Shown here piece after piece: positions 27,836 to 36,296 of a stretch of DNA of 64,000 nucleotides. How positions within the stretch are numbered: position 1 is the first letter of the stretch; each line of letters begins with the position of its first letter. The stretch is from Anaerorhabdus furcosa (GTDB taxonomy: Bacteria; Bacillota_I; Bacilli_A; Erysipelotrichales; Erysipelotrichaceae): positions 372,001 through 436,000 of the forward strand of contig NZ_FUWY01000001.1 of the NCBI RefSeq assembly GCF_900167375.1, in the 5' to 3' direction. The notes under the pieces were generated by a model. The model had not been told where the DNA came from. It did not search any database and worked only from the letters and a program-made list of their open reading frames with translations. Made by a program: the position numbers and the translations under genes.

Positions 27836-27939
27836 TCAAGTAATATGAAAATACGTAAAAATTACGTTCTCAACCTATTACTTGATGAATCTTATTTGAG
27901 CTCTGCACAATGTTTCATCATACCTGTTTGTACAGAGCT
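27836..27939 (-). promoter_or_regulatory. structured 5' leader of the MFS pump
   Basis: Three hairpins can be read in the transcript: a 12-bp stem with one G-U pair (27899-27910 with 27928-27939) that lies inside the leader ORF, a 9-bp stem TCAAGTAAT / ATTACTTGA (27836-27844 with 27877-27885), and inside its loop a 6-bp stem (27853-27858 with 27862-27867). No T run follows, so control at translation is more likely than transcription termination. Confidence 0.6.
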
Positions 27940-27981
27940 AATTCGTCTTCTAATCGAACAGAATCTAATAACTAATTTCAT
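27892..27981 (-). CDS. 29-residue leader peptide upstream of the MFS pump
   Basis: ORF MKLVIRFCSIRRRISSVQTG plus nine further residues, started by ATG 27981 with AAAGGGTG seven bases upstream, an excellent ribosome binding site. It contains three consecutive arginines (residues 11-13). Macrolide-dependent ribosome stalling is known to favour Arg/Lys-x-Arg/Lys motifs in leaders of erm and mef genes. The distal half of the ORF forms one strand of the first leader hairpin, so a stalled ribosome would change the fold. The protein itself is unlikely to be functional. This ORF was identified by eye. Confidence 0.55.
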   Translation of the reverse strand: MKLVIRFCSIRRRISSVQTGMMKHCAELK

Positions 27982-32327: not shown

Positions 32328-32471
32328 TTTTCTCACCTTCATAGATTATACTTAACCTTCTACAAGAGTCAAGCAGAATAATTTCATTCCTTCTAACCAC
32401 TTGATTCTAATCAACTCATACATCCAATATAAGCCACTTTTAAACCATAATAATTAATTGACCAAATAAAG

Positions 32472-32560
32472 AAAAAAAGCCATCTCCCATGACTTTATTC
32501 CCAATGCTCTGAATTCTAATCTCTCTTGCGTGCATCTCCCTGCACTACCAGCTAAATTAT
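32472..32560 (-). ncRNA. small RNA B (predicted)
   Basis: Predicted from promoter and terminator only. The transcript would start near 32560, about 7 bases after the -10 box (32567-32572), and end in a terminator with stem AAGTCAT / ATGGCTT (32477-32495) and seven T. It contains a hairpin GTGCA-GGGAGA-TGCAC (32530-32545). The loops of both hairpins carry GGGAG, so the motif is exposed twice. An ORF starting at the ATG of the first loop would run through the terminator and has no proper ribosome binding site, so non-coding function is preferred. Confidence 0.45.
32530..32545 (-). promoter_or_regulatory. hairpin with GGGAGA loop in small RNA B
   Basis: Perfect 5-bp stem GTGCA / TGCAC closing the loop GGGAGA. 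The same GGGAG appears in the loop of the terminator hairpin. Confidence 0.5.
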
Positions 32561-32566
32561 ATAATT

Positions 32567-32599
32567 ATTATAGGACTCAATGCTTACACAACGCTTACA
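32567..32599 (-). promoter_or_regulatory. promoter B with two 11-bp-phased TGTAAGC repeats
   Basis: On the minus strand TGTAAGC occurs at 32599-32593 and 32588-32582, starts 11 bp apart, and TATAAT (32572-32567) begins 9 bp after the second copy. No -35 box is needed in this layout. Heptamer repeats 11 bp apart next to the -10 are how SARP-type activators bind; a SARP-type response regulator is encoded 1.6 kb upstream. Confidence 0.65.
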
Positions 32600-32679
32600 A
32601 AGAATCCAATAATTAAAATTTTGCATTAATCTTTTTGCGATAAATCATATTTCAACATGAGTTAAATTGTAAACAATAA

Positions 32680-32760
32680 AAAAATGAGCAAGATTTATTT
32701 CTCACTCACTTCTTCGAACATTATTTGCTCTCTCCCTAAATTCTTTGGACAATGATGTCC
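32680..32760 (-). ncRNA. small RNA A (predicted), with an 8-residue ORF
   Basis: Predicted start near 32760 after the -10 box at 32767-32772. The 5' end forms a hairpin TGGACA / TGTCCA (about 32744-32761). The terminator has an 8-bp stem TGAGTGAG / CTTGCTCA with two wobble pairs (32701-32708 with 32685-32692) followed by a T run. A short ORF lies between. It could be a peptide mRNA or a regulatory RNA. Confidence 0.45.
32695..32721 (-). CDS. possible 8-residue peptide ORF in small RNA A
   Basis: ATG 32721 opens MFEEVSEK followed by TAA. AGGGAGAG lies eight bases upstream, an unusually good ribosome binding site for such a short frame. The coding part overlaps the 5' arm of the terminator hairpin, so translation would interfere with termination. 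The peptide has no signal sequence. Whether it is made, or is simply chance, cannot be told from sequence. Confidence 0.35.
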   Translation of the reverse strand: MFEEVSEK

Positions 32761-32766
32761 ATCATT

Positions 32767-32799
32767 AGATTAACGCTTCCTGCTTACTCCATGCTTACA
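32767..32799 (-). promoter_or_regulatory. promoter A with two 11-bp-phased GTAAGC repeats
   Basis: TGTAAGC (32799-32793) and AGTAAGC (32788-32782) are 11 bp apart, and TAATCT (32772-32767) begins 9 bp after the second. Every element is exactly 200 bp from its counterpart in promoter B. Confidence 0.62.
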
Positions 32800-32864: not shown

Positions 32865-34166
32865 TTATGGAATTAAAATTTTAACCTCGGTTCCATTACC
32901 TATTTCGCTAAACACTTCAACTCTACCCTGACAATTCTCTTCAATCATTTTCTTAACTGTTCTAAGTCCTATATGATGAAAATCTATTGCAGATTTTCTA
33001 GCCAAATCAAACCCAACACCATCATCCTTTACACTTATAATAATTTCATTATTCTTACGGATTGTGGAAATGATTATTTTCCCTTTCTCTACTTTTTTTG
33101 CAATACCAAATTGGATTGCATTGTGAACAGGAATATACAAAGAGAGTGAAGGCAACAGAAAATTATCTACTTCAAGATTCCATTCAACACTAAAGTGATT
33201 TGCATGTTGTATTTGTTCCAAAAATAAATAATCCTTTACATACTCTACCTCTTTGTTAAATGAAGTTAAATCAGAATTTGTTAATGCATTTAAATTTCCT
33301 CTTAAGTAATAAGAGAAATGTTCCAGTGCTTCTGATGCTACTTTTGAATTAGATGAACACAAGTTTTTAATATTCGTTAAACTTTCTTGCAAGAATACTG
33401 GTTGTATTCGTGACATCATCATAGCATTTTTATTTTTTTCTAATTCCATTTTATTTGCATAATACATATGTGACTGATTAAGTAATATGAAAATATAAAT
33501 CCCAATGATTACTATTGTAGCAACTGGGAATAAATACCAATTTTCTGTTGTAATCAATTGATAGACAAGTGCGATAAGAGGAAGACCAATTAGAATAAGA
33601 AATGAAAGTTTTTCTCGTTTAGTAAATTTATCTAAGTTTTTTAACTGTACAACAAACAGAGGAACTAAACAAATTACCCCCATAACATTACTTACCCAAA
33701 ACCATTCTCCTTCCACATATAGATTATTTACATTTACCCAATAATAACTCTTGGTCATTGTAAACAAGAATGTCATAAGAATTGAAACGATGACTAATAC
33801 TTCAATTACCTTTTGTAAATTATCTACAAGTATTTCTTTTTGTTTTAGATAACTAATATAAAATTTAGAAAAAGGCAACATCGCAATATATGCAAAAATA
33901 AAAACCATGAAGTTTGATGCGTAAACAATATAATAAGAAATTTCACTTTGATTCCCATCTACCAAACAAGCTATCATATTTGAGACATTAAAAAAAATAC
34001 ATATAGTAATGAATTTTGAATAAAACATATCCAACTGATTTTTGTTTTTCTTAAATATGTTCAAAAATAAAATTAGCATCAATGACAATGCAATACTATA
34101 AGATAACAAACATACACTCAAATATGTATCTACACTTAGATAAGAACCAATACTAAAAAAATTCAT
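32865..34166 (-). CDS. sensor kinase paralogue lacking the phosphoacceptor histidine
   Basis: 433 residues from ATG 34166 (GAGGAG upstream; longer starts overlap the response regulator). About seven membrane helices (1-230) are followed by a LytS-type His_kinase region and an ATPase domain. It is clearly a paralogue of the kinase at 35010: both have ALEHFSYYLRGNL and YVxDYLFLE. In the phosphorylation motif QPHFLYNS of the paralogue, this protein reads QPVFLQES, with Val257 instead of His, and the N-box ENAVRHG is HNAIQFG (N349 kept, catalytic Glu lost). The G-box DDGVGFD is intact. It probably binds ATP but cannot be phosphorylated on the usual residue, so it may act as a regulatory partner of the intact kinase. 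Confidence 0.88.
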   Translation of the reverse strand: MNFFSIGSYLSVDTYLSVCLLSYSIALSLMLILFLNIFKKNKNQLDMFYSKFITICIFFNVSNMIACLVDGNQSEISYYIVYASNFMVFIFAYIAMLPFSKFYISYLKQKEILVDNLQKVIEVLVIVSILMTFLFTMTKSYYWVNVNNLYVEGEWFWVSNVMGVICLVPLFVVQLKNLDKFTKREKLSFLILIGLPLIALVYQLITTENWYLFPVATIVIIGIYIFILLNQSHMYYANKMELEKNKNAMMMSRIQPVFLQESLTNIKNLCSSNSKVASEALEHFSYYLRGNLNALTNSDLTSFNKEVEYVKDYLFLEQIQHANHFSVEWNLEVDNFLLPSLSLYIPVHNAIQFGIAKKVEKGKIIISTIRKNNEIIISVKDDGVGFDLARKSAIDFHHIGLRTVKKMIEENCQGRVEVFSEIGNGTEVKILIP

Positions 34167-34201: not shown

Positions 34202-35008
34202 TTACATTTTTTGATAAACTTCTTGTTGACGAATTAATTCTCCTACTGTAAACTCTGACCAACTATAATTGCTCATGTACTCTCCAGTAAATGTATTAAT
34301 TATTTGTGAATCTTTATTAAGGAAACGATAATAATCACAATCAACCATACTCACATTTATTCCAATTTCTTTATGGTGTTTGATTATGATATCTTGGATA
34401 CCTTCTTCCTTAAGTGTTTGCATTATAGAGAATATAATCTGATGAATATTATTTTGTGTCGTTCGATCATAAAGTTTATCTTCCCACAAAATTGCAGCTA
34501 ACTCTCGCAAAGCCACCATCGCACCTTTTCTGTCAACTAGATAAGCTAAACACTCCTTGCATCTACTTCTAGGAAATTCCAACGGTTTGCCATCCACAAA
34601 TACTTCGAAATTACCAAACGTTTGAATTCTTACCCGTGACTGATCTGTCTTTATCGGATATCTTAGATTTGCTAATTCTCTTCTTAAATCTTGTTCACGA
34701 ACTGGTTTCAACAAATAGCCACTTGCATGCAATTTAAATGCATCCAGTGAATATTGAGAATGTCCTGTCACGAATATAATATTGATTTGTGGACAAACCT
34801 CTGTAAATTTTCTAGCCAATGCTAATCCATCCATTTCACTCATTTCTATATCAAGAAACGCAATATCAACATGATTTGCTTCAATATATTCAAGTGCACT
34901 TTCTACATCAAAGAACCCTACACCTTTGTAGTTAGGATCTGTTTTCAGTAGTGTACCAATAAGATTTTCAACAGCAAGTCTTTCATCATCAACAACAATG
35001 AATTTCAT
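34202..35008 (-). CDS. response regulator with SARP-type DNA-binding domain
   Basis: 268 residues. The receiver domain spans 1-120 with D53 (AFLDIE) as phosphoacceptor and conserved acidic D7/D8 and K101. The C-terminal region starts RIQTFGNFEVFVDGKPLEF, followed by CLAYLVDRKGAMVALRELAAILWED and a helical part with FTGEYMSNYSWSEF, the winged helix plus BTAD-like helices of SARP activators (as in the 'SAPR' response regulators of Clostridia). It lies 1 bp after the intact kinase gene. SARPs bind direct repeats 11 bp apart beside the -10; two such sites lie just downstream of this operon. Confidence 0.92.
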   Translation of the reverse strand: MKFIVVDDERLAVENLIGTLLKTDPNYKGVGFFDVESALEYIEANHVDIAFLDIEMSEMDGLALARKFTEVCPQINIIFVTGHSQYSLDAFKLHASGYLLKPVREQDLRRELANLRYPIKTDQSRVRIQTFGNFEVFVDGKPLEFPRSRCKECLAYLVDRKGAMVALRELAAILWEDKLYDRTTQNNIHQIIFSIMQTLKEEGIQDIIIKHHKEIGINVSMVDCDYYRFLNKDSQIINTFTGEYMSNYSWSEFTVGELIRQQEVYQKM

Positions 35009-35009
35009 T

Positions 35010-36296
35010 CTAATTACCTTTTAAGGGAATATATAGCTTTACTTTAGTTCCCTCTCCTTTTTTACTCTCTATTATTACATTTCCATTACACTCAGCAAGT
35101 ATGCGTTGCTTTACATTTCTAATACCTATGTGTGTTTGTCCATCATCCAAACTTTGATTCACATCATAGCCTACTCCTGTATCTTCTACACTGACACAAA
35201 CTTGATTTTTTATTTTTTCAACGGAGATTCTTATTGTTCCTCCCTCTTTCTTTTTCATAACACCATGACGAACTGCATTTTCTACGATAGTTTGCAACGT
35301 CAATGTTGGTATTAGAAAATCTTCATATTGAATATTATATTCAATTTGCAATCTATCTTCAAACCTCATCTTTTCAAGAAATAAGTAATCTTCCACATAT
35401 TCAAATTCCTTTTCGAATTCAATAAGACTTGTATTTGATAATGAATCTAAATTCCCTCTTAAATAATAAGAAAAATGTTCTAGTGCAACTGCTGCTTTTT
35501 TAGGTTCTGTATCACATAGTTGTTTTATGCTGAGCAAACTATTGTACAAAAAATGAGGCTGAATTTGAGCTATGATCATTGCAGATCTAGTTTTTTCAAG
35601 TTCTAACTCTTTCTCGAAATATAACTGAGTTTGCTCAGACTGTATAAAGACATAAATCCCAATAACTACAACCGTAGTTACAATATGTAATGGGAATGCT
35701 TTCCCTGTCACTACTGTATAGATTAAAGCGATGAATGGTGCGGAAATATATAACAAGAAAGAAAATCTCTCATTACCACTAAATCTCTTCCAGTTTTTAA
35801 ATAAAGCACTGGTAGGTGCCAACACTAACAAAATACCCATTAGTCCAGAGAGCCAATAGAAGTTGCCCCGAGAGTAAATATTGTATGCATCAATACGATA
35901 GTATATTCCAGTAAATAGTGATAAGACAACCAAGACTTCGGATACAATTAGAGTAACTCTTGCAAAAATTATTTCTTTTCCAAAAACACCATTTTTCTCT
36001 TTTAAGAACGTAAAGAAATATCTACAAAATGTTCCAATCAATAAATAAGATAAGGCATACATTAAAAATGTTGATATGTGTGCAATCAGCATTGAAGCAA
36101 AGTCATCTTTTCGATCAAATAACCAAGACAAAACATTGCATGTTTGAAGTAACACATTGCACATTACAAACTGAGTATACAAAAAGTCTAAATAACTTTT
36201 ACGAATCTTAAAAATTCGAAGAAAAAGAATGATGATGATTGAAACGAGAATACCAAAAACTTGGAGTGATATGCTTATATATGCCTCAGTGCTCAT
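35010..36296 (-). CDS. LytS-type sensor histidine kinase
   Basis: 428 residues. Residues 1-220 form about seven membrane helices with short loops and no large sensor domain outside the membrane, which suits a small, membrane-soluble or peptide signal. The phosphorylation motif QPHFLYNSL has His248; the ATP-binding domain has the N-box VENAVRHG (N340) and G-box DTGVGYD. It should phosphorylate the SARP-type regulator encoded 1 bp downstream. AGGAAAAG precedes the ATG. Confidence 0.92.
   Translation of the reverse strand: MSTEAYISISLQVFGILVSIIIILFLRIFKIRKSYLDFLYTQFVMCNVLLQTCNVLSWLFDRKDDFASMLIAHISTFLMYALSYLLIGTFCRYFFTFLKEKNGVFGKEIIFARVTLIVSEVLVVLSLFTGIYYRIDAYNIYSRGNFYWLSGLMGILLVLAPTSALFKNWKRFSGNERFSFLLYISAPFIALIYTVVTGKAFPLHIVTTVVVIGIYVFIQSEQTQLYFEKELELEKTRSAMIIAQIQPHFLYNSLLSIKQLCDTEPKKAAVALEHFSYYLRGNLDSLSNTSLIEFEKEFEYVEDYLFLEKMRFEDRLQIEYNIQYEDFLIPTLTLQTIVENAVRHGVMKKKEGGTIRISVEKIKNQVCVSVEDTGVGYDVNQSLDDGQTHIGIRNVKQRILAECNGNVIIESKKGEGTKVKLYIPLKGN

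Follow-up and report, generated by a model that had tools for sequence, protein, structure and literature searches.

We present evidence for a local two-component relay in Anaerorhabdus furcosa, in which a sensor histidine kinase, acting through a SARP-type response regulator, probably controls two short regulatory RNAs. We give this reading a probability of about 0.72. Its components all lie on the minus strand of the 64,000-nt stretch of DNA that was analyzed (the window). In the proposed mechanism, kinase 1 would phosphorylate the regulator, which would then bind head to tail on a pair of TGTAAGC half-sites that are spaced by one helical turn and overlap the place of the −35 element. The bound regulator would recruit RNA polymerase to two promoters, A and B, each yielding an intrinsically terminated regulatory RNA of about 85 to 90 nt. 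These RNAs would presumably act by base pairing, without Hfq. We infer regulator binding, promoter activation, transcription, and RNA action from the features described below.

Promoters A and B are situated between the second kinase gene of the locus, which ends at 32865, and a DUF1934 gene, which starts at 32342, all on the minus strand. Promoter A (32767 to 32799) reads TGTAAGC-N4-AGTAAGC-N9-TAATCT, with its heptamers at 32799 to 32793 and 32788 to 32782, followed after 9 nt by the −10 box at 32772 to 32767. Promoter B (32567 to 32599) reads TGTAAGC-N4-TGTAAGC-N9-TATAAT, with heptamers at 32599 to 32593 and 32588 to 32582 and, again after 9 nt, the −10 box at 32572 to 32567. The two sites are offset by exactly 200 bp. 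An earlier note on this DNA had described the paired heptamers, their 11-bp phasing, the 9 nt to the −10 box, and the 200-bp offset; on direct reading, all of these are exact. The −10 box of site A (TAATCT) is weak, and a good −35 element at the usual spacing is absent from both sites, as expected of activator-dependent promoters. A weaker promoter-like sequence, TTGATA-N18-TATAGT (32856 to 32827), is found just upstream of site A, at chance level for an AT-rich stretch.

The earlier note had also proposed scanning the genome with the box motif. Throughout the genome (11 contigs, 2.41 Mb in total), GTAAGC-N5-GTAAGC-N7..11-TANNNT matches sites A and B alone, with no match for the reversed-pattern control. 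Allowing up to two mismatches in the repeat pair adds 27 matches genome-wide, all of them at that limit; the reversed control gives 29. When the −10 box is included and up to three mismatches are allowed, further matches in the genome occur at chance level only. A wider regulon was therefore rejected, as the genome holds no additional sites above the control level. Among 3000 dinucleotide-shuffled versions of the intergenic region, 1 had a pair of sites sharing a heptamer. Outside their boxes, units A and B differ from each other, which rules out a simple 200-bp duplication. The round figure of 200 bp is probably without meaning.

The response regulator (34202 to 35008, minus strand) comprises a receiver domain (residues 1 to 115; Pfam E = 7e-21) and, at residues 122 to 268, a SARP-type winged helix that continues into the opening part of a BTA domain. 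Its C-terminal half is barely seen by Pfam (Trans_reg_C, E = 0.017), and the regulator has no Pfam BTAD match. As a fold search with the whole protein was filled by receiver domains, the output domain was modeled and searched alone (AlphaFold2, 54-sequence alignment, pLDDT 95.9). The search returned EmbR (Z = 14.9, 145 of 147 residues) and AfsR (Z = 14.1 to 14.5), with EmbR and AfsR matches spanning 140 to 145 of the 147 residues, while ordinary OmpR/PhoB domains gave Z scores of at most 10.3 over ~93 residues. A sequence profile likewise matches the winged helix and first BTA helices to EmbR and AfsR. About 50 residues of the BTA domain are present, and the regulator is too short for the remainder. 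As modeled, the label SARP-type holds for the winged helix and for the BTA domain as far as it extends; the rest of that domain is missing. The regulator has 19 matches in its own genome, mostly confined to the receiver domain. No relatives of it were found in viral contigs.

Two kinase genes flank the regulator gene. Upstream lies the gene for sensor histidine kinase 1 (35010 to 36296, minus strand), which has His_kinase (PF06580) and HATPase_c domains and an intact phosphoacceptor motif, QPHFLYN. Downstream lies the gene for a second kinase (32865 to 34166, minus strand), a paralogue of kinase 1 (38% identity) whose phosphoacceptor histidine is replaced by valine (QPVFLQE). We infer that kinase 1 serves as the phosphodonor and that the second kinase, judged by its sequence, is probably an accessory protein or pseudo-kinase. 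This histidine-less tandem paralogue keeps its ATPase domain and sits between the regulator gene and the target promoters. The promoters had earlier been described as directly downstream of the regulator's operon. That placement is right, with the second kinase gene intervening.

Boxes of the same architecture are found beside related regulators. We collected 111 related loci from the bacterium's own family and from named genomes, including the locus of a paralogue (44% identity) encoded in the same genome. On the coding strand, the 250 nt after each regulator stop codon were scanned for a heptamer pair with a −10 box 7 to 11 nt on. Heptamers with 11-bp phasing and a −10 box occur at 32 of 112 loci (the relatives plus the window), compared with 0 to 3 loci at phasings of 8 to 10 and 12 to 16 bp. 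The window is not among the 32, because its own sites lie beyond the second kinase gene and fall outside the 250-nt scan. When the relatives are clustered at 60% identity, 16 of 55 loci have the 11-bp phasing, versus 0 to 3 for the others. The excess is absent in regions further downstream. On the opposite strand there is a smaller 11-bp excess (12 loci), as expected when the same direct repeats are read backwards. The half-sites vary by locus (TGTTGTC, TTGTTGC, TGTAACG, TTTGAGA, TTGGACA, and others), and their placement relative to the −10 box is nearly constant. The nearest relative, Hungatella effluvii (L097, 58% identity), also has the nearest box: TGTAAGA-N4-TGTAAGG-N9-TATAAT, 78 nt after the regulator gene.

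A 39-column matrix was built from the boxes of 21 non-redundant relatives, with the window excluded. This relatives-only matrix places site B at rank 1 of about 128,000 window positions (15.98 bits; next position, 12.02 bits), while site A scores 2.8 bits only. With leave-one-out matrices, the native site ranks first in 11 of 21 loci and within the top ten in 15 of 21; because the relatives' boxes had been preselected for repeats and a −10 box, the window offers an independent test of the matrix and the relatives do not. At loci without a called box, the 300 nt that follow the regulator gene have seven times the density of high matrix scores seen elsewhere. Within the non-redundant set, similarity of the recognition helix does not correlate significantly with similarity of the box (r = 0.13, P = 0.13).

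The earlier note had proposed that the SARP-type regulator drives both promoters. The EmbR/AfsR-like fold, the family-wide 11-bp boxes, the relatives-only matrix, and the lack of other targets in the genome scans all point the same way, and the assignment of promoters A and B to the regulator at 34202 to 35008 is well supported. The paralogous regulator in the same genome (L033, 6803 to 7600; G000:C4) has a candidate box of its own, CGACGCT-N4-CGACACT-N8-TATAAT, 179 nt downstream. Beyond that box, no gene is evident for about 585 nt, up to a glycosyltransferase-like gene.

Each promoter precedes a short unit that ends in an intrinsic terminator. Predicted small RNA A (32672 to 32760, minus strand) would be about 85 to 90 nt long, with its start assumed to lie about 7 nt after the −10 box. 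Its terminator is a 16-pair hairpin (32715 to 32678) followed by a T run, which largely accounts for the folding-energy z score of the unit (−3.3). Predicted small RNA B (32472 to 32560, minus strand; about 89 nt) has a hairpin, GUGCA-GGGAGA-UGCAC, a purine-rich linker, and a terminator, AAGUCAU-GGGAG-AUGGCUU with a T run (32495 to 32472). The terminator hairpin of B has seven to eight pairs, and the energy z score of the unit is −2.1. A simple terminator scanner lists only the terminator of A; that of B came from folding. In the two units, the distances from −10 box to terminator are 83 and 96 nt. Neither unit contains an open reading frame (ORF) of at least 25 codons with a Shine-Dalgarno (SD) sequence before its terminator, and the coding content of unit A is a single 8-codon ORF.

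Units A and B have no match in Rfam. They also have no convincing homologues among 273 genomes of the family, a weak test because other species of the same genus were not among them; the weak matches seen are short AT-rich pieces. Their sequences are thus under no demonstrated constraint. Elsewhere in the window, 27900 to 27947 on the minus strand matches the Rfam uup RNA (RF03060; 54.7 bits). RNAs read from the reverse strand, with UCUCCC loops, were considered because such a complement would resemble an anti-SD RNA; they were rejected, as the order of box and −10 and both terminators indicate the minus strand. Hfq has no match in the genome, and Hfq-dependent action was rejected. CsrA/RsmA (PF02599) likewise has no match in this 95.7%-complete genome, with positive controls. 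Titration of CsrA by units A and B was therefore dismissed as very unlikely, save for the case that the 4% of the genome not covered holds the gene. To judge by their layout, units A and B are likely csRNA-like small RNAs, and this is their best reading. The earlier claim that the main local outputs are two small RNAs is favored by promoters, lengths of 85 to 90 nt, terminators, and the lack of a convincing ORF, and is likely, although the RNAs, which are predicted from sequence, are without detected homologues.

Box-driven, terminator-ended units also occur in two other groups of loci. In the first (L168, 5467 to 6760, and L169), a SARP-type DNA-binding domain is fused to a nicotinamidase/isochorismatase-like domain, and a cognate-looking box lies 134 nt after the stop codon in L169. 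The unit of ~93 nt is near-identical from box to terminator between the two genomes, which diverge right behind the terminator. It has a C-rich ACCCCUCAAACCCCUCUCC segment, lies upstream of panBC-like genes, and has no match in Rfam. The second group (L148, 5995 to 11238, and L155) comprises radical-SAM-like peptide clusters with a precursor ending DAVSGGACTTEDEDHKKRKIDS and a peptidase-type ABC exporter. These clusters carry a pair of SARP-type regulator boxes, and the second one precedes a structured, terminator-ended unit of ~105 nt that could, from its sequence, be a small RNA or a leader.

Several findings count against the relay: the lack of homologues of the two RNAs, the weak −10 box at A, the relatives' boxes, which mostly precede protein genes, and the non-significant helix-box correlation. 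Most relatives' boxes drive genes for secreted, STAS-like, or RelA/SpoT-like proteins, further response regulators, or a peptide (named by eye). Promoters A and B might accordingly be remnants, in which a box-driven protein gene was lost, leaving behind box, start region, and terminator, with RNAs that are functionless. The missing homologues and the weak −10 box of A agree with such decay. Drift, however, would wear away boxes and terminators, whereas both boxes here retain the same or nearly the same heptamer, and in each case a terminator of its own lies 83 to 96 nt from the −10 box, and a conserved box-driven RNA unit exists elsewhere in the family. We thus consider decay of this kind unlikely.

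It is very unlikely that the units are leaders, with B an attenuator feeding the DUF1934 operon or A encoding the peptide MFEEVSEK behind AGGGAGAG. The DUF1934 gene, followed by a HARE-HTH gene, does start on the strand of site B, about 220 nt further downstream, and an SD-like sequence precedes the 8-codon ORF of unit A. However, between the terminator and the DUF1934 gene lies a near-consensus sigma-A-type promoter, TTGACT-N16-TATAAT (32345 to 32372, minus strand; matching the consensus at 11 of 12 positions), so there is no need for unit B to serve that operon, and an ORF of eight codons that runs into a terminator stem hardly speaks for a peptide. Finally, sites A and B could belong to another OmpR-family regulator, such as one resembling CiaR (TTTAAG-N5-TTTAAG), with the neighboring SARP-type regulator not cognate. 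Sites of the OmpR type, CiaR's included, share the 11-bp phasing and the 9 to 10 nt to the −10 box, and the 19 matches in the genome, mostly to the receiver domain only, show that response regulators are many. Against this, the sites adjoin the locus of the SARP-type regulator, a matrix from boxes beside such regulators picks out site B, and the nearest relative has the nearest box. We regard a foreign regulator as highly improbable.

Beyond this locus, the more general result is that, across the class, candidate cognate boxes are found beside the genes of SARP-type response regulators. We think it reasonably probable that these regulators are a widespread class, occurring in Firmicutes and in other gut and rumen bacteria and marked by a cognate 11-bp-phased box just downstream of the gene, and that in a subset, including the window, the box directly drives small regulatory RNAs in place of a protein. 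The targets of response regulators usually need experiments to be found. Here, for dozens of regulators with differing half-sites, the sequence adjoining the gene reveals the site, which makes a SARP-type DNA-recognition code testable. If the relay is real, this would be a second regulator family, beside CiaR, with a two-component output mainly via small RNAs, in a host whose genome has no match to Hfq or CsrA. A literature search that covered few subscription papers returned nothing on these regulators or on Firmicute REC-SARP regulators with RNA targets, which is weak evidence of novelty.

The system recalls three known ones. In Gac/Rsm, the direct output of a two-component system is a pair of small RNAs, RsmY and RsmZ. 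A pair is also predicted here, and RNA B has GGA in hairpin loops; unlike in Gac/Rsm, a CsrA/RsmA gene was not found in the window's genome. With the SARP activators (AfsR-afsS, EmbR, and PimR), the regulator shares the modeled fold of its DNA-binding domain and first BTA helices, and the sites share heptamer repeats spaced by one turn near the −10 box. The afsS gene adjoins afsR. The regulator differs from these activators in its receiver domain in front, its about 50 BTA residues instead of a full domain, its Firmicute host, and its target units without protein genes. SARP operators have repeats 11 or 22 bp apart, with about 8 bp between the 3′ repeat and the −10 box (PMC10936776); at A and B the repeats are 11 bp apart, with 9 nt to the −10 box.

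The streptococcal csRNAs of CiaRH are short, intergenic, terminator-ended RNAs of 51 to 202 nt, whose promoters read TTTAAG-N5-TTTAAG-N10-TATAAT and are followed by a terminator (PMC3091779). Here too, a two-component regulator is paired with 6-bp cores 11 bp apart, and TGTAAG-N5-TGTAAG-N10-TATAAT has identical geometry. The window's RNAs, predicted from sequence alone, would likewise be short, intergenic, and terminator-ended, and at both A and B an intergenic promoter is followed by a terminator in less than 250 nt. The half-site is TGTAAGC rather than TTTAAG: compared with NTTAAG-N5-TTTAAG, the core TGTAAG fits at four or five of six positions, with G instead of T at position 2. The output domain is SARP-type rather than plain OmpR-type, the kinases are of the PF06580 (LytS-like) kind, and, unlike in CiaRH, both targets adjoin the regulator. 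As half-site and regulator differ, the window's system is not a member of the csRNA group. By analogy, it may nonetheless work in the same way as a csRNA system.
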